Part shown: positions 1-29,454 of the stretch, piece after piece
How positions within the stretch are numbered: position 1 is the first letter of the stretch
Layout: each line of letters starts with the position of its first letter
Source: a virus
IMG/VR virus record: IMGVR_UViG_3300017769_000085
Coordinates: 1-29,454 of that record
Reading direction: 5' to 3' (one strand)
DNA: 29,454 nt
Made by a program: the position numbers and the translations under genes
Notes under the pieces: model-generated
What the model saw: the letters and a program-made list of their open reading frames with translations, nothing else
Databases searched by the model: none
Told to the model about the DNA's origin: nothing

Positions 1-875
1 AAAGAGGATGCATATCCAGTTACAGTGTGATTAAATACAAAATCTTCATTATCATCTAAATCATTAAATTCACCTTTTTTACTATTTAACCATAAATATA
101 AATTTGAGAAAGCAGTAGAGCCAAAGAATTTATCAAATTCACCATTAGAGCCTCTAGTGAATAATATACCATATTTTGATTCTATGGCCTCTATGATATG
201 TATTGCTCTTATTGCAGGTTTTAAATCAGTATATTCTAAACCTCTATTTCTATCTAAAGATGTTGGTAGATTTGATTCATCGCAATATAAATTTCCAGAT
301 GAATTGAAAAAACCACTAGCAACAGGGTCATCCGAATTAAAAAATAATCTTTTTTTAGACGTTATTAATGGATATATAATAGAGTTAGTTTGACTATTTA
401 AATTTAATCCTGTAGTAAAGCCATTTCTAACATTTGATTCTGAATATTCGTGATTGTAATTTTTTAGATTATCTAAATCAGTCAACTCATCATCACCTAT
501 TAAGTCTTTTAGAGATACTGTTTTACCATAAAATATAACCTCGTAAGCATAAGCCTTGTTGTTTTTCATCTTCACACTATTCAAAAATATTTTACCCTCC
601 CTGAATGGCTTATAGTTTATAAACAACCTAGCTTTTCTTTTCTTTCTAGCATCAAAAGCATTACCAGTAATGTTAAAATTGTAAAAATGTCTAAACATTT
701 TATTGTTAGTGTCTGATGCAGGTACTGTAAATGTGTGAGAAAAGTCAGTGAATACCTTACCTATATCCTTAACGTCTTGTATAGTTGATGTAAGTTGTAT
801 AGTTTCATTATCGAATAGATCAATAAGGACTTCTTGACTTTTATTATTTTCAATATATAACTGAAGTCTCTGCAT
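1..875 (-). CDS. Putative baseplate/tail structural protein, C-terminus cut by window edge
   Basis: The reading frame is open from an ATG at 875 to the left window edge, giving about 291 residues with no stop. It begins MQRLQLYIENNKSQEV. The next stretch contains VFTDFSHTFTVPASD, a pattern I associate with baseplate or tail-tip proteins of Bacteroidetes phages. The ATG overlaps the stop of the upstream gene as TAATG, which fixes the start and suggests coupled translation. Its place after tail-completion genes supports a virion role. No catalytic motif is visible in the part present. The family assignment rests on recalled similarity; the reading frame is certain. Confidence 0.75.
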   Translation of the reverse strand, partial: MQRLQLYIENNKSQEVLIDLFDNETIQLTSTIQDVKDIGKVFTDFSHTFTVPASDTNNKMFRHFYNFNITGNAFDARKKRKARLFINYKPFREGKIFLNSVKMKNNKAYAYEVIFYGKTVSLKDLIGDDELTDLDNLKNYNHEYSESNVRNGFTTGLNLNSQTNSIIYPLITSKKRLFFNSDDPVASGFFNSSGNLYCDESNLPTSLDRNRGLEYTDLKPAIRAIHIIEAIESKYGILFTRGSNGEFDKFFGSTAFSNLYLWLNSKKGEFNDLDDNEDFVFNHTVTGYASS

Positions 876-1965: not shown

Positions 1966-3654
1966 TTATATATTAAATCCGTAATCAGTTAAGGCTTGAA
2001 TAACAAAATCGAAGTAATAATTTGGGTTTGAAGAATATGGAACACCTGATTGAAGCACCCCAACACTTGATACCTCAGACCTGTCAGATAAACCTTTAGC
2101 ACCACCAAAACCTTCATTACCACTAAATATGTTTTGTAAGAATGTAGTCTGTGGAGTAGCATTATTTTCAACAATAAAAAATTTCATGAAATGCTCTCCA
2201 TAGCTCTTAGAATCTAAAAAAGTCCTGTATTCTGCTAAATCACTTATATAGTTTGGTCTAGCTTGAGTGTAGTCTGTTGGCCCTGAGTAAACGAAAGGGC
2301 CACCCCCTGCAGGAGTTGAACCTGAGATGTTACTTAAACTCTGATATGCACCAGAACCACCTACTTCATCTTGAAAATATATATATATACTTTTTGTAGC
2401 ATCAGAATTGACCTTTCCATGTGATGCAGTTTTTAAGAATCTCTCTTTGTTGTGTTGTGTTGGAGGTGACAAAGATGGAATTGTAAATTCAGTATTAAAC
2501 GCAAAATCATTTGATTTATATACCCTAACTCTTTTATTATACTCTGCAGTATCTCCATTATAGAATGATAATAATTTATTTTTTAAATTACCATCAACCA
2601 TACTCTTTAATTGTGGTAATGTGTTTGCCATCGAACCAGAACTATCAAATATTATTATTATCTCGACTTTGCTATCATATTCTTGTTCAGGAGTGCCTAA
2701 ATCAAAACTTTCGCCACCCTTTTCTGATGTACCTGTACAGGTTGCTACAGAAACAGTGTTTTCTTGTGCTGAGACTACTTTAGTAGCTCCATTCGCCAAT
2801 ATTTCATTCTGAGTAGCCCCATTAACATCTGTATATGTAAATGTAGTGTTGCCGCTAGAGCAAGTACCTGTTAACGTATGAAAGAATGTTGTTGTTGCTT
2901 GTACGTTTGGACAATTAAGTTTAAAACTATAACTATCGTTTGGTACAGGTGATAGAGCTGTTAAAGTTACTTCAGTGGGTGATGCTGTTGTTTTGTTTAT
3001 TGTTAATGTAGTTGATGTGCTTTTACTTGTAGGTGATGCTGTATTATTCACTGGTAGGTTTATACCTGACAGTACAGTAGAGTCTCCAATATACCCACTA
3101 CTTACTGTATTTCCATCCCAAGCTATATCAAATTGAACAGGTGAGTCTTGAATTCCTCCTCCGTCTAAAAACTCGATTTGTACATTACCAATTTTGTTTC
3201 CTACACCAGTTAGATTATATGTTTTTGCACCTATAAAAGAACCTTCATTTACAACTTCTCCACAACTAACATTTCTATCTAAATTCTCGTTTGGTTCTGG
3301 TCTTTCTTGCCAATTAATTGCTTTTATCGCTGTTGCTGTATCTCCATCATTATCAGTTACTGTTACAGTAAAAATCTGAGATTGAATTAAGGTTAAGTTT
3401 GTAGCTGTTATTGATTGAGTTGTAGCTGTGCTAAAACCACCCCACTGATAACCAACTATAGTACCATCACTGTCTGTTGCTACTGCTGTTAATGTAACTG
3501 TTTCTCCAACATAAGGATTCTCATTACTTACAGTTATTGTAACTGTAGGTGGAGTGTTATTCTCCACTGGAGTTGGTATTGTAGGTTGTGTAGGTTCGGT
3601 AGGATTTGCCTCAATATAATAAGGACTCCTAGTATTTATTCTAACATCACTCAT
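1966..3654 (-). CDS. Virion-associated PKD + von Willebrand factor A domain protein
   Basis: A 562-residue protein. Residues 1-35 form a Pro/Thr-rich tail. Residues about 36-115 match a PKD/Ig-like domain, with TVTLTAVATDSDGTIVGYQW and a closing FTVTVTDNDGDTA. Residues about 330-560 look like a von Willebrand factor A domain: the hydrophobic strand VEIIIIFD runs into DSSGSM, giving the metal-ion MIDAS signature Asp337-Ser339-Ser341. Between them lies a Cys/Thr-rich beta region (residues 130-325). PKD and vWA domains commonly mediate protein or glycan contacts, so a surface-exposed tail adhesin is plausible. No signal peptide is present, as expected for a virion protein. It lies between tail-completion and baseplate-like genes. 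Confidence 0.75.
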   Translation of the reverse strand: MSDVRINTRSPYYIEANPTEPTQPTIPTPVENNTPPTVTITVSNENPYVGETVTLTAVATDSDGTIVGYQWGGFSTATTQSITATNLTLIQSQIFTVTVTDNDGDTATAIKAINWQERPEPNENLDRNVSCGEVVNEGSFIGAKTYNLTGVGNKIGNVQIEFLDGGGIQDSPVQFDIAWDGNTVSSGYIGDSTVLSGINLPVNNTASPTSKSTSTTLTINKTTASPTEVTLTALSPVPNDSYSFKLNCPNVQATTTFFHTLTGTCSSGNTTFTYTDVNGATQNEILANGATKVVSAQENTVSVATCTGTSEKGGESFDLGTPEQEYDSKVEIIIIFDSSGSMANTLPQLKSMVDGNLKNKLLSFYNGDTAEYNKRVRVYKSNDFAFNTEFTIPSLSPPTQHNKERFLKTASHGKVNSDATKSIYIYFQDEVGGSGAYQSLSNISGSTPAGGGPFVYSGPTDYTQARPNYISDLAEYRTFLDSKSYGEHFMKFFIVENNATPQTTFLQNIFSGNEGFGGAKGLSDRSEVSSVGVLQSGVPYSSNPNYYFDFVIQALTDYGFNI

Positions 3655-4219: not shown

Positions 4220-4680
4220 TAGCAGATAGTATGTTCATTGTTTGGCATCTCTATATTGATAGTTGCTGCCCAACCTGCTAATTGATTCTCAAAGTTATCC
4301 ATAAATGGTGAAGCTGTAATATCAGTTGTTATCTGCAAATTATCATCAAATAACCCACCCCTTCGTAATTCTTGCTGTATGTCATTTACAACTTGTAATT
4401 GAGTGTTTAGCACATCCTGCAAGTTATCATTACCATAGATGAGGTCTTCATCGGTTAACTCTTTAGTCTTATCCACTATATCTAAACAAAATATTTGTAT
4501 AGTTGTGTTTATAATTTGAGGTGAGAATGTCACATCACCCATTGATATGTGGGATAATGGATAGATAGTTGTTTTGTCCAAATCAACTTCCAATATATCC
4601 CCGAAGGTGACTGTATTAGTAATTCCATTTTGTTTAAGTTTTGTCTTTAATTTATCTATTACGGTATATACTTGCCTCAT
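4219..4680 (-). CDS. Putative tail terminator / tail completion protein
   Basis: A 153-residue protein starting MRQVYTVIDKLKTKLKQNG. An N-terminal helix is followed by alternating beta segments and a Gln/Asp-rich helix (residues 95-120) and ends NIEMPNNEHTIC. This layout resembles small tail-terminator proteins that cap the tail tube. Its ATG sits in an ATGA overlap with the stop of the -1 frameshift extension of the upstream chaperone gene, strong evidence for this start and for the extension. The position between a frameshifting chaperone and a gp10-like protein also supports a tail-completion role. Confidence 0.55.
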   Translation of the reverse strand: MRQVYTVIDKLKTKLKQNGITNTVTFGDILEVDLDKTTIYPLSHISMGDVTFSPQIINTTIQIFCLDIVDKTKELTDEDLIYGNDNLQDVLNTQLQVVNDIQQELRRGGLFDDNLQITTDITASPFMDNFENQLAGWAATINIEMPNNEHTIC

Positions 4681-4835
4681 TTGGTTTTTTGTTTTATCAT
4701 TTTAGCTTCTAACTCGTTCTTCTCCTTCTCGAATTCTAACCAAGTCAAACATTCGGAAGCCGATAGTTTTGCAACTTCTTTAAATTTTGTGACATCTCCT
4801 TTAGCGATTGCATATATTGATTGGTACCATCCCCA
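4677..4835 (-). CDS. Tail assembly chaperone -1 frameshift extension (52 aa)
   Basis: In the -1 frame relative to the 4745..5449 gene, the sequence is open from the A7 run (4842-4836) to a TGA at 4679-4677. The 52 residues begin WGWYQSIYAIAKGD and end EFEKEKNELEAKMIKQKTK. Two features show it is coding. The composition (Trp/Tyr-rich start, then an amphipathic Lys/Glu helix) is typical of G-T type chaperone extensions. The TGA also overlaps the next ATG as ATGA, the same coupling used across this genome. The zero-frame codons at the slip are GAA AAA AAT, so slipping on the A-run is possible. The fusion product would be 257 residues. The extension has no plausible start of its own. Confidence 0.75.
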   Translation of the reverse strand, partial: WGWYQSIYAIAKGDVTKFKEVAKLSASECLTWLEFEKEKNELEAKMIKQKTK

Positions 4836-5449
4836 TTTTTTTCCAAATCCTTTATTAGTTCCTTGTCCTCCATCATCTGATCCGTCAAAGAGTTCAGTAA
4901 ATAATCCGATAAAACGTTCCCTAAACGATAAAAAAAAACCGTTGCACCTAAGGCTACATTTACTGGAGCATCCTTCATTATTTCAGAATACTTATCTGAG
5001 CTTTCATAATCTTCTATTAAATATAAATCCCCTTTCTGAAATGTGATTGGCCTATATAGAACAGCCATAGCTTTATGAATCTGTTGCCAGTCACCTATAT
5101 AATTATCTAGGTCTATAAACTCACCTAAACTAATATCATCTAGCTTTGGCATAAACCCAAACTTAACTGTATCACCATTTGGGTCTTTCATTATGAAATC
5201 TCTCTGCAAAGGTGTCTCCTCCTTAAATATATTTATAACATGGTTTATGATAAATGAAAACTTTGCCAGAGGTAATTTATATGCTTGTTTCATAGTAACC
5301 CCACAGAATATCTCTAACACTTTTAGATTGATAAATTCTGTATCTTCAGCATCCTTATTATCCTCCATAACCTTCAGATATTTCTGATATTGTTTTAGTG
5401 GGATAGCGGACAGTTCTTGTGGTACTTCTAAAGTAAACTTCTCATTCAT
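4745..5449 (-). CDS. Tail assembly chaperone, zero-frame product (234 aa)
   Basis: A 234-residue, mostly helical acidic protein starting MNEKFTLEVPQELSAIPLKQ. The motif YLIEDYESSDKYSEIMKDAP lies in the middle and a hydrophobic helix VALGATVFFYRLGNVL follows. I recall proteins of this kind from Flavobacteriia phages upstream of tail genes. Tail assembly chaperones bind the tape-measure protein and are typically made in two forms by -1 frameshifting. This gene has a run of seven A at 4842-4836 near its 3' end and an open -1 frame beyond it, described separately. The zero-frame product ends NYRLPNV at a TGA at 4745. No convincing promoter is visible upstream in 5450-5640. Confidence 0.7.
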   Translation of the reverse strand: MNEKFTLEVPQELSAIPLKQYQKYLKVMEDNKDAEDTEFINLKVLEIFCGVTMKQAYKLPLAKFSFIINHVINIFKEETPLQRDFIMKDPNGDTVKFGFMPKLDDISLGEFIDLDNYIGDWQQIHKAMAVLYRPITFQKGDLYLIEDYESSDKYSEIMKDAPVNVALGATVFFYRLGNVLSDYLLNSLTDQMMEDKELIKDLEKNGDGTNQYMQSLKEMSQNLKKLQNYRLPNV

Positions 5450-12193: not shown

Positions 12194-12442
12194 TTATTTC
12201 TGAGTTAAATCTTTTTCATTCATATGGGCCTCTAAGATGTATCCATCTAAAGGACTAAGAGTAGATATAGCTTTATATATCTTTCTACTCATCGATTTAA
12301 CTTTCTTCTTATCTGTAAGTGTAGAATTAGAACCTAAGTTGGTATACATATAAGCATCCTCCATTAACAGTTCATCAACCTTTTTTTTTATCGACCAAGT
12401 CTTGTACCCCTGTATCTTTCGTATTTTCTCCTCCGTTATCAT
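12194..12442 (-). CDS. Hypothetical protein (82 aa)
   Basis: An 82-residue basic helical protein starting MITEEKIRKIQGYKTWSIKK. Its first 68 nt overlap the 55-codon gene upstream in another frame; the overlap contains a run of nine A (12389-12381) that encodes Lys codons in both frames. The stop is 35 nt before the exonuclease ATG. The region MSRKIYKAISTLSPLDGYIL might form a helix-turn-helix, but this is weak. No family recognised. Confidence 0.65.
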   Translation of the reverse strand: MITEEKIRKIQGYKTWSIKKKVDELLMEDAYMYTNLGSNSTLTDKKKVKSMSRKIYKAISTLSPLDGYILEAHMNEKDLTQK

Positions 12443-17617: not shown

Positions 17618-17649
17618 CAAAGATAAATCATGTCATCTAAGAAACCAAA
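17618..17649 (-). promoter_or_regulatory. Bacteroidetes-type promoter for the ERF/replication operon
   Basis: On the minus strand TTTG (17649-17646), 20 nt, then TATCTTTG (17625-17618) match the consensus TTTG-N19-TAnnTTTG. The start of transcription is expected near 17612. It overlaps the last codons of the M15 gene and points to the 64-codon gene and ERF. It is the strongest minus-strand promoter I found. Confidence 0.65.
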
Positions 17650-17998
17650 TCATATTAGGTTTTAAATCATCATTGTCAACATGAATGTATTTACTTCCTA
17701 AACCAAACCTTTTAAAACCAACCATAGATAATGATTCAACTATTTTAAGTCGTTTCTTAGCGTTAACACATTCTATATGAGCTGCCCTACCAATTAAGTG
17801 TGTAGATGTAGTAGATGCCATGAAATGATTTGTATTGTACATAGGAGTTCTATAACCACTAAGTATTTTAAATCTTATCTTTGCTATATCTCTAGCCTCA
17901 TCTAACATTCCTATAAATTCCCTATCCATATACTTATAACCACTACCTAATTGTGTAGGGCAATCAAATTCATCAAATGAAAAATATTTATAATCCAC
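17633..17998 (-). CDS. Second M15-family peptidase-like protein, altered zinc ligand (121 aa)
   Basis: A 121-residue protein sharing the start pattern FSxxEFDCP and the layout of the M15 peptidase at 19068..19424, so the two are paralogues. The M15 zinc motif SxHxxGxAxD is present as STHLIGRAAH: His67 is kept but the Asp ligand is replaced by His74. The third ligand remains as His106 in KYIHVDND. The arginine motif SGYRT is kept. It may still bind zinc through three histidines, or have turned into a binding protein. It is followed by a terminator and by the ERF operon, away from the main lysis cluster. Confidence 0.75.
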   Translation of the reverse strand: MDYKYFSFDEFDCPTQLGSGYKYMDREFIGMLDEARDIAKIRFKILSGYRTPMYNTNHFMASTTSTHLIGRAAHIECVNAKKRLKIVESLSMVGFKRFGLGSKYIHVDNDDLKPNMIWFLR

Positions 17999-19067: not shown

Positions 19068-19424
19068 TTAGTAAGTCCAAACTGAATTTGGCTTGGATTC
19101 ATCGGTATCGCAATGTATGAATGTTTTTGCAACTCCGATACGTTTAAACCCTGCTTTGATAAGGGCATTAAGTATAATGTATCTTTCACTTCCTGAACCA
19201 ACAGCGATGTCTGCTGCGACTCCGATTTTATGACTTGAGTTGGGAACTCCTCCAACCGCCTCATTATGAGATGTTGTTCTGTATCCGCTTGTAATTCTAA
19301 AGGGGATTGCTGCCAAGTCTCTAGCGTGTTCGAGCTTATAAAGAAAGTTAGTATCCATGTTCTTACCTGAATCAGGTAGGCTAGGACAATCAAACTCTGA
19401 AAGGGAAAAGAACTTAAGGTTCAT
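19068..19424 (-). CDS. M15-family peptidase endolysin (118 aa)
   Basis: A 118-residue D-Ala-D-Ala carboxypeptidase / L-Ala-D-Glu endopeptidase type protein. The zinc site is complete: SSHKIGVAAD gives His65 and Asp72, and FIHCDTD gives His104; the substrate-binding SGYRTTSHN is at 46-54. It cleaves peptidoglycan stem peptides at lysis. The ATG overlaps the TGA of the 51-codon membrane gene as ATGA. No signal peptide, so export depends on a holin. A paralogue lies at 17633..17998. Confidence 0.9.
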   Translation of the reverse strand: MNLKFFSLSEFDCPSLPDSGKNMDTNFLYKLEHARDLAAIPFRITSGYRTTSHNEAVGGVPNSSHKIGVAADIAVGSGSERYIILNALIKAGFKRIGVAKTFIHCDTDESKPNSVWTY

Positions 19425-25309: not shown

Positions 25310-25858
25310 TTAAGAATTTGTACCTTGAGTCACAGTTACAGTTCCTGTTAAACCTGCAAAAGGATCAGCTTCTGTAGCACCTTCTAAAAAGTTAGCAGGT
25401 ACTTGCTCCATAGCAGAGAATGTAAGTGTATAACCTGACATATCTCCCATAGCTGCACCTGTTGCAATAGTTCCACCTGTCACATCACAACCATGCTCCG
25501 CACCCATTAAAAAAGCATTACCGTTATAGTCTTGCACCACAATATGTGGTCTACCATAACTCATTAGCTTTAATTCTTTGTGGTCTTGTACAGTTAATTT
25601 CTTTAAAGTAAGGTTTAATGCCTGTTCAAAGAAAGTTGTACCATTTTCTCTTGAAGAAGTAATAGTTTGTTCAAAACTACTATTCCCCTTTAATTCATAT
25701 TTAAATACCGTTACAGTACCTAAATCATCTACTACGTCTGTATCTGTACTATCATACGCAATAGTTATATCTCCAAAGTCTGCAAAATAAACGGCTTTTA
25801 TACCACCAACCGAATCTTTACAGGGTTCTTTTCTACCTTTTGTTAAATCACAAGCCAT
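25310..25858 (-). CDS. Probable major tail (tube) protein (182 aa)
   Basis: A 182-residue protein starting MACDLTKGRKEPCKDSVGGI; beta-rich throughout. The middle has ELKGNSSFEQTITSSRENGT then FFEQALNLTLKKLTVQDHKE, and the end includes a TVTVTQGTNS strand. I recall this type as a common virion protein of Flavobacteriia phages. Its isolation between two strong terminators, next to the capsid gene, fits a protein made in high amount, as a tail tube subunit is. An alternative is a capsid decoration protein. Confidence 0.6.
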   Translation of the reverse strand: MACDLTKGRKEPCKDSVGGIKAVYFADFGDITIAYDSTDTDVVDDLGTVTVFKYELKGNSSFEQTITSSRENGTTFFEQALNLTLKKLTVQDHKELKLMSYGRPHIVVQDYNGNAFLMGAEHGCDVTGGTIATGAAMGDMSGYTLTFSAMEQVPANFLEGATEADPFAGLTGTVTVTQGTNS

Positions 25859-27418: not shown

Positions 27419-27574
27419 TCAAGTACCGTCACCAGTTATATTACCGATACCTTGACCTCTTAAAGTGCCATCACAACATTTTTTTGAATACGTTTTACCA
27501 TCTTTACATAGGCATCCTCTGTTACCACCTTTAGGTGAGGAATAACTAGGTGTTTCTTTCATTCTTTTTTTCAT
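27419..27574 (-). CDS. Cys-rich small protein between protease and scaffold (51 aa)
   Basis: A 51-residue protein: MKKRMKETPSYSSPKGGNRG then CLCKDGKTYSKKCCDGTLRG and an end GQGIGNITGDGT-like. Four cysteines (21, 23, 33, 34) in a C-x-C-x9-CC pattern could hold a metal. I recall short proteins with CLCxDGxTYSxxCCDGTLxxQGIG in marine phages near capsid genes. The ATG overlaps the protease stop as TAATG. Role unknown; possibly structural. Confidence 0.7.
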   Translation of the reverse strand: MKKRMKETPSYSSPKGGNRGCLCKDGKTYSKKCCDGTLRGQGIGNITGDGT

Positions 27575-29061
27575 TACTTTCTGCTTGACTTAGGGTGTTT
27601 ATTTGGTAGTAAATCATAGTCAGTTGTATACTTAGCATTCTGAGGCCTTCCATTCTTTAATAAATAAAGGAAAGCATTAACTCTAGCGAATGCCCATTGT
27701 GAAGCTGATCTAACTTGAGGTGACCTACTAGTGTTGAATGCACCTAAACCTCTTTGAAATACACTAGATAAAGAACCAACAGTTGCACCATAACCTAGCT
27801 TCTTCTTGTATTTTTTATTAAATTCATCAGCTTTATTTTGAAGTGTAGCCCTGTCTTTAGCAGACACCTTTGCACCAGTCTTACCACTAGCATCTCCCTT
27901 TGCACTTCCTTTTCCTTTTGGATTAGGGTTAGGAGTATTAGATTTAGGTGCTTTAGGTGATTTTCTGATACCACCTTTTGGGCCAACTTCAGCAAGGTTA
28001 TGAGATTCACAAGGCATATACCAAGTCTTTCCTTCAACATCGTGTGTATGATAACCACTACAACCAATATCTTTAGCTGCCTCTTCAGCCTCTTCCATTG
28101 TAGAGTAAGCTGCTCTTCCATCAATAATTGTAGCAGAAGCCTCTAGTCCTTTTAGCTTAGACTCAGTCCAATTCAACATACTTTTACCTCCCCAGAGAAG
28201 ATAACTTACAGTTCCACAAGCATCTGGTTTACTAGGATCATAATATTCAGCAGCTCTGCTTAAATAAGAGTAGATGCGTTTAAGAGTTGGTAAGGTAAAT
28301 TTCTCTTTTCTCTCTAACTGTCTAGCTCTAGTTTTACCTACTAAAGTTGCACACTTATTACCTAGTGCTTTATTTCTTTTTATTCCAAGTTTAGCATTGT
28401 TTGATGCAGATTCAGGATAACCACCATAAGATTCTAAATGAACCTCTTCAGAAAGTAAATCAATAGCTTCTAATAAGTCATACTCTGCATTTAACTCATC
28501 AAGATGTTCTGAATAGAAAGATTCCTGTATAGATTCTTTAGGTCCATCCATCTTATCAGCAAAATATCCTTCTATAGAGAATCCTTTTATCTCTCCTGCC
28601 TTAACTTGATTCCAAATATCATCATTATTAACTTTAACAGAAACCATCCAAGTACCTACAGGTAAATCAAAGTTGTATTTTCTAGATTTATCTTTAGTTT
28701 CATCCTCTATAATCCAAGATTCAACTACAGACATCCCTTCAAGCTCTACGTCATGCTCTAGAGTGCTATTATTTTGGTTTCCCTTCATTAAAAACAGCTC
28801 AGAAGCCTTTCTAACAGTTTCTTCAGCAAAAAAGATGTAATATTCCTCTAAACCACTGTTTCTATATATTTTTTTGTTAGGAATTAGGGCTGCACCCATC
28901 AAAATTCGCTTTTCTTTGTCTACTTCAGCTAATTTTACCTCTTTATGCTCTTTTAGAGCTATAAAATCCTCTTCTATAGCAGGATTTTCGACAACTGAGA
29001 TAGCTTCAATACCACTAAACTCGTTTTCTTCATCAATGATAAGTTCTATAATACGTTCCAT
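27574..29061 (-). CDS. XkdF-like protease fused to further domains (495 aa)
   Basis: A 495-residue polyprotein-like gene. Residues 1-175 match the XkdF-like putative serine protease domain (MERIIELIIDEENEFSGIEA; NNSTLEHDVELEGMSVVESW; GEIKGFSIEGYF), used for prohead maturation. Residues about 217-300 carry GGYPESASNNAKLGIKRNKA and PDACGTVSYLLWGGKSMLNW, a segment often attached to such proteins. Residues 325-372 have a C..GYH..HD....MPC..H motif. A Gly/Pro/Lys linker leads to residues about 410-495, which resemble DUF5824 (GAFNTSRSPQVRSASQWAFA, ending YTTDYDLLPNKHP). The C-terminal domains may be cleaved off or be cargo. Confidence 0.75.
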   Translation of the reverse strand: MERIIELIIDEENEFSGIEAISVVENPAIEEDFIALKEHKEVKLAEVDKEKRILMGAALIPNKKIYRNSGLEEYYIFFAEETVRKASELFLMKGNQNNSTLEHDVELEGMSVVESWIIEDETKDKSRKYNFDLPVGTWMVSVKVNNDDIWNQVKAGEIKGFSIEGYFADKMDGPKESIQESFYSEHLDELNAEYDLLEAIDLLSEEVHLESYGGYPESASNNAKLGIKRNKALGNKCATLVGKTRARQLERKEKFTLPTLKRIYSYLSRAAEYYDPSKPDACGTVSYLLWGGKSMLNWTESKLKGLEASATIIDGRAAYSTMEEAEEAAKDIGCSGYHTHDVEGKTWYMPCESHNLAEVGPKGGIRKSPKAPKSNTPNPNPKGKGSAKGDASGKTGAKVSAKDRATLQNKADEFNKKYKKKLGYGATVGSLSSVFQRGLGAFNTSRSPQVRSASQWAFARVNAFLYLLKNGRPQNAKYTTDYDLLPNKHPKSSRK

Positions 29062-29097: not shown

Positions 29098-29454
29098 TTA
29101 ACCTAAAGACCTATTGAAATCAATAGTCCTATCTAATTCTTGAGCATCTTTAATGTCTTTATTTACCACAAATGCTCTTAATGGCTTCTCTTGTTGGCCT
29201 CTAATAGATTGAGCTAATTGCGATTCAGGGGATGCACCGACTACATTAAAGTCTGGTGCTTCTACATTAGTATCGCTCCCAACTGCTCCTCCACCTCTTA
29301 ATTTACCTCTACCAGTCTCATCAACCTCTAATATCTTTCTAACATTAGCCAATCCTAATGCTATTATACTTGCAACAGCAAAAGGTTTTACTGCTGTTGG
29401 GATTAAAGGGTCTTTAAGAGCTTGGTTTGCAGCAACATAAGTATCAATAGTAGC
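29098..29454 (-). CDS. Tape-measure protein, C-terminal end (N-terminus outside window)
   Basis: The frame is open to the right edge; about 118 residues are present and no true start is needed, although an in-frame TTG occurs at 29352. The stretch IDTYVAANQALKDPLIPTAV, then ASIIALGLANVRKILE, followed by a Gly/Pro-rich linker and LAQSIRGQQEKPLRAFVVNK then QELDRTIDFNRSLG, is the typical C-terminus of tape-measure proteins in Bacteroidetes phages. Such proteins set tail length. Here it directly precedes the capsid protease gene, so tail genes lead into head genes. Confidence 0.75.
   Translation of the reverse strand, partial: ATIDTYVAANQALKDPLIPTAVKPFAVASIIALGLANVRKILEVDETGRGKLRGGGAVGSDTNVEAPDFNVVGASPESQLAQSIRGQQEKPLRAFVVNKDIKDAQELDRTIDFNRSLG

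Follow-up and report, generated by a model that had tools for sequence, protein, structure and literature searches.

The window analysed here is a 29,454-base virus record in which a minus-strand gene at 5449–4745 encodes a protein of 234 residues, probably the short form of a gpG-like tail assembly chaperone; its family, PHROG 32199, is of unknown function. Within this zero frame a run of nine T (4938–4930, minus strand, zero-frame context GTT TTT TTT TAT) is the candidate slippage site. Passing through the T9 run, the −1 frame stays open over 101 codons (gene nucleotides 467 to 773). From 4937 to 4677 on the minus strand it encodes a gpT-like domain, FFLSFRERF...KWGWYQSIYAIAKGD...KQKTK, which is conserved in alignments A2 and A6, is borne out by the pattern of substitution by codon position, and closes with the TGA at 4679–4677. 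This stop overlaps the start of the next gene (4680–4219, minus strand, 153 residues, PHROG 30964, unknown function) as ATGA, just as the original prediction described. That prediction had placed a programmed −1 frameshift in this gene further downstream, at an A7 run in GG-AAAAAAA-TGGGG (4842–4836, minus strand), and made no mention of the T9 run. The A7 run is indeed present, and the 52 codons reported as open are confirmed from TGG to TGA, but they are only part of the true opening. The predicted fusion has 257 residues, of which residues 1–173 are shared with the 234-residue form and 84, starting at a leucine, come from the −1 frame. The overlap in which both frames are coding extends for around 60 codons 3′ of the slip site in the window; among relatives the zero-frame tail varies from about 10 to 91 codons.

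Relatives were gathered by seven protein-similarity scans, which took as queries the window protein, zero-frame A1, −1 frame A2, A3 and A4, and a Nonlabens protein. The scans used degenerate back-translated peptides, none of which required an unbroken T-run; two peptides, FFYHLGND (Nonlabens-protein scan) and FF[LF]..FR, overlap the run but admit TTC besides TTT. Each scan contributed its best loci up to a maximum of 80, and the sample therefore follows the queries. For the T-run it comprises 384 listed loci with 288 unique 90-mers, falling into 133 clusters at <80% identity over 150 nt. Further relatives came from an N-terminal profile search of genomes. The isolate phages among the matches are solely Nonlabens P12024L and P12024S, and other searches yielded none more. 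The phage appears to be of flavobacterium type.

Both frames are coding. Between the T-run and a WGW motif the −1 frame is free of stops in all 296 unique homologues and the +1 frame is stopped in every one; the zero frame has ended before WGW in five of them, P12024L/S included. Upstream of the run, relatives compared in 101 disjoint pairs differ at rates of 0.106, 0.061 and 0.308 for codon positions 1, 2 and 3. In the overlap the same zero-frame positions give 0.074, 0.135 and 0.118, the fastest site being −1 position 3, and beyond the zero-frame stop the −1 frame gives 0.082, 0.049 and 0.192. The stretch from the run to WGW, taken alone, gives 0.117, 0.140 and 0.167, with zero-frame position 3 again far under its upstream value. 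Such a pattern, with the fastest-changing site moving to −1 position 3 in the overlap, is the mark of a genuine −1 protein, and the zero-frame tail is constrained too. The locus has the two overlapping frames and conserved −1 shift expected of a G/GT-type chaperone.

In the window the A7 run lies in frame for a ribosomal slip at A_AAA_AAT, and the −1 frame is open downstream of it. The run is not conserved, however, being found in just 23 of the 296 unique homologues, and the −1 frame is already open and under purifying selection some 30 codons upstream of it. In P12024L/S and a few other loci an A7 site would be unusable because the zero frame stops before the equivalent position. A ribosomal −1 frameshift at A7 is thus very improbable and we rejected this site. 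On the original prediction's own refuting condition, homologues in which the A-run is absent, the A7 site falls: the run is missing from 273 of the 296. The −1 frame is conserved, with stops in none of the 296 from the T-run up to where A7 would lie. What survives of the original prediction is a programmed shift into a conserved C-terminal domain within a probable chaperone architecture; in place of its site, and of the ribosome slipping at A_AAA_AAT, we put T9 and, probably, a slipping RNA polymerase.

The −1 domain could instead be a separate gene read from its own start, or the two frames could be split by a pseudogene or an assembly error. The public annotation of P12024L/S does divide the pair into two hypothetical proteins, gp40 and gp41, and begins P12024L gp41 (L012 5522–5689) at an internal ATG, 28 codons beyond T9. 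Conservation of the −1 sequence nevertheless sets in at the T-run, ahead of this ATG, and gp40 and gp41 should for that reason be joined; in the window the first ATG of the −1 frame occurs near its end. The same arrangement recurs in the isolates, in many independent metagenomes and in a chromosomal contig. An independent start of the −1 gene was rejected on these grounds, and an explanation by separate genes or artefact is hardly credible.

At the junction the T-run is 9 long in 344 loci, 10 in 38 and 12 in 2; no run is shorter than nine among the 384 listed loci, and none of the 133 clusters has seven or eight T. T9 was also seen in a 3.9-Mb chromosomal contig and in a distant relative, both from the N-terminal profile search of genomes. 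A T9 or A9 by itself is unremarkable in the window (four runs of nine A/T observed, 3.5 ± 1.8 expected); the conservation of this T-run exceeds chance. An A/T homopolymer of at least nine, conserved in length within a coding region, is what programmed transcriptional slippage calls for, and it was present in 384 of 384 listed loci. The run is placed in three phase classes, NTT TTT TTT TAY/TGG, TTT TTT TTT TAY/CTG and AGT/GGT TTT TTT TTG, and the flanks compensate, such that lineages without T on one side of the run carry extra Ts on the other. The conserved residues V/L/I-F-F-Y/W explain part of the run. In 108 clusters a T to C change at its last position would be silent in both frames; codon usage predicts it in 13% and it was seen in 0 of 108. 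The probability of this is approximately 10^-6.5 if the clusters are independent, a value that shared ancestry makes too extreme. Elsewhere in the same genes, other Phe-Phe pairs are written with runs of 2 to 9 T, 19 of the 25 having fewer than nine, and the upstream coding DNA holds 15 runs of 7–8 T vs 6 runs of nine. Shorter solutions are therefore readily available. Stops set bounds on the position of the shift: among 387 loci the closest −1 frame stop ends 2 nt before the run and the closest zero-frame stop comes 19 nt after it. In P12024L the shift could fall only within 82 nt around the run, and in locus L179 within 52 nt.

Bacterial RNA polymerase is known to slip on runs of nine A/T, and in many bacterial genomes it is at this length that slippage is visibly selected against (PMC1088944; PMC5009743). 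We propose, with a probability of roughly 0.6, that RNA polymerase slippage at T9 makes the fusion form of the probable tail assembly chaperone. The polymerase would slip on the run in a fraction of transcripts, adding one U. An extra U changes the reading just as a −1 shift does, so that the slipped mRNAs would yield the 257-residue fusion by normal translation and the unslipped mRNAs the 234-residue form; tail assembly would then be served by short and fused chaperone in a fixed proportion.

The chief competitor is a ribosomal −1 frameshift at the same T-run. As in classical G/GT chaperone genes, a pair of Phe-tRNAs would slip on U_UUU_UUU, and the run would owe its length to the heptamer together with the conserved amino acids. 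Each of the listed phase classes contains an in-frame heptamer of the X_XXY_YYZ type, T_TTT_TTT. In lambda it is the ribosome that shifts in G/GT, and frameshifting of this kind is conserved widely among long-tailed phages; programmed ribosomal frameshifts also occur in Bacteroidia, for example +1 in prfB (PMC8710568). Yet such a heptamer needs only seven Ts, and runs of seven or eight are missing from all the clusters although they are the commoner kind upstream. Three distinct phase solutions all give at least nine T, and T_TTT_TTC is never used. Stimulators in the form of a downstream structure or an upstream Shine-Dalgarno-like element, which are common though not obligatory for ribosomal −1 shifts, are not conserved here. 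Folding without pseudoknots gave no excess of RNA structure up- or downstream of the run (downstream mean z −0.07 and 0.04), and a Shine-Dalgarno-like motif occurs in 5% of the 133 clusters. Sites of the lambda type can function, at low efficiency, even where strong stimulators are absent. We regard ribosomal slippage at the T-run as a possible but distinctly less likely account. The polymerase is favoured because of the floor of nine Ts without conserved RNA structure or Shine-Dalgarno-like stimulator; the variable phase, the missing T to C change and the shorter Phe-Phe runs elsewhere likewise speak for a rule of length. Polymerase and ribosome may also both contribute. The sequences themselves establish where the T-run lies, that it and the two reading frames are conserved, and that RNA stimulators are not; the slipping of the polymerase in preference to the ribosome, the proportion of the products and the role as a chaperone are inferences. 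One point against the polymerase is that slippage levels published for comparable runs often lie at 15–55% (PMC4256274). This exceeds the ratio of near 30:1 of the ribosomal lambda G/GT frameshift, so that the product ratio would differ from that of lambda.

An AlphaFold model of residues 1–173, common to both products, has a mean pLDDT of 91.5. The model of the −1 part (mean pLDDT 69, rising to the 80s in its second half) has a poorly defined N-terminal stretch, a linker, followed by three helices. A Foldseek search of the N-terminal model against the PDB gave no match below E 0.6, and Pfam and PDB sequence searches returned no family for the gene products. On re-alignment of 986 chains, the HK97 tail assembly chaperone 2ob9 ranked second, a weak match (Z 3.5, 67 residues, 3.8 Å) covering residues 3–78 of the window protein. 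PHROG 166, annotated as "tail protein", is touched by 8 of 66 relatives; it had no match in one related record. Both in the window and in P12024L the gene sits between the terminase and the tail-module genes. A G/GT-type chaperone gene is expected between those for the major tail protein and the tape measure; neither of these was named by the libraries searched, and a likely tube protein lies in the head module at 25310–25858. Given the two-product architecture, the neighbourhood, the weak HK97 fold match and the PHROG 166 matches, the most likely role of the gene is that of lambda gpG/gpGT, tail assembly chaperone, in a siphophage-like virus of Bacteroidota. Two BFVD models, A0A516L611 and A0A516L5A8 (258–260 residues), match both domain models and hint at single-frame fusions in some lineages.

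We note several further features of the window. Genes are cut at both record ends (29101–29454 and 3–875, minus strand), and the stretch 29101–29454 matches the last 95 positions of PHROG 32985 (686 long, the same length as P12024L gp50); the record is therefore probably incomplete or a permuted genome. A 495-residue protein (27574–29061, minus strand) combines an XkdF-like prohead protease (Pfam PF14550) with DUF3721 and DUF5824. The tail module includes a 562-residue protein with a PKD domain (1966–3654, minus strand, Pfam PF22352), whose DSSGS motif resembles a von Willebrand A metal site, an unusual feature for a protein of the phage virion. On the minus strand a pair of paralogous small M15-type peptidases is encoded at 17633–17998 and 19068–19424, the second matching PHROG 894 (endolysin). 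The first has His where the SxHxxGxAxD motif calls for Asp (STHLIGRAAHI vs SSHKIGVAADI), so that this copy may be inactive or reprogrammed. A second slippage candidate, an A9 run at 12389–12381 (minus strand), was considered and rejected. There a 55-residue open reading frame (12542–12375) ends two codons after the run and an overlapping one of 82 residues (12442–12194, minus strand) continues in another frame; conservation of the 82-residue gene reaches back to its own start, and in the 13 of 80 relatives in which a simple motif recognised the spot the longest A-run measures 2–8, the other 67 being unrecognised.

Like lambda gpG/gpGT and systems of the HK97 type, the locus would make a short form and a −1 fusion from one tailed-phage gene in the morphogenesis region, and as in gpGT the C-terminal part is read only after the shift. 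It shares no sequence family with lambda; the homopolymer of at least nine T is obligatory here where lambda has a seven-base heptamer, the dual-coding overlap 3′ of the site is long, and the tape measure gene is not directly next. P12024L/S gp40 and gp41 share the T9 (ATA CTT TTT TTT TAT) and the −1 domain with the window gene and lie immediately behind the terminase gene; they differ in being around 30% identical in the zero frame, which stops about 24 codons past the site. Transcriptional slippage at long A/T homopolymers in coding regions, giving two products, is known for Thermus dnaX (nine A), Shigella mxiE and spa13, and Citrobacter tssM1 (eleven A) (PMC5009743; PMC4256274). These examples come from bacteria, and in most of them the run is of A on the coding strand, whereas here slippage is predicted at a T run in a phage morphogenesis gene across 133 divergent clusters.

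G/GT frameshifting is a standard case of ribosomal recoding. It and slippage at A/T runs are each known, and their union in one gene is unreported in the literature searched; we found no report there of slippage in tail chaperones, which is weak evidence as most subscription journals lay outside the search. The annotation is corrected in that PHROG 32199 and PHROG 38404, both of unknown function, become the N- and C-terminal parts of one fusion. Uncultured phages with this fusion would number in the hundreds, and the two families together offer a recognisable marker of the tail module. On balance we lean towards the view that in at least 133 Bacteroidota phage lineages (counted at <80% identity at the slip site), mostly uncultured, the ratio of chaperone forms is set by polymerase slippage, the G/GT switch having moved from the ribosome. 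If true, this would show, in a host phylum whose ribosomes rely little on Shine-Dalgarno sequences, that ribosomal recoding and polymerase slippage are interchangeable in serving one function.
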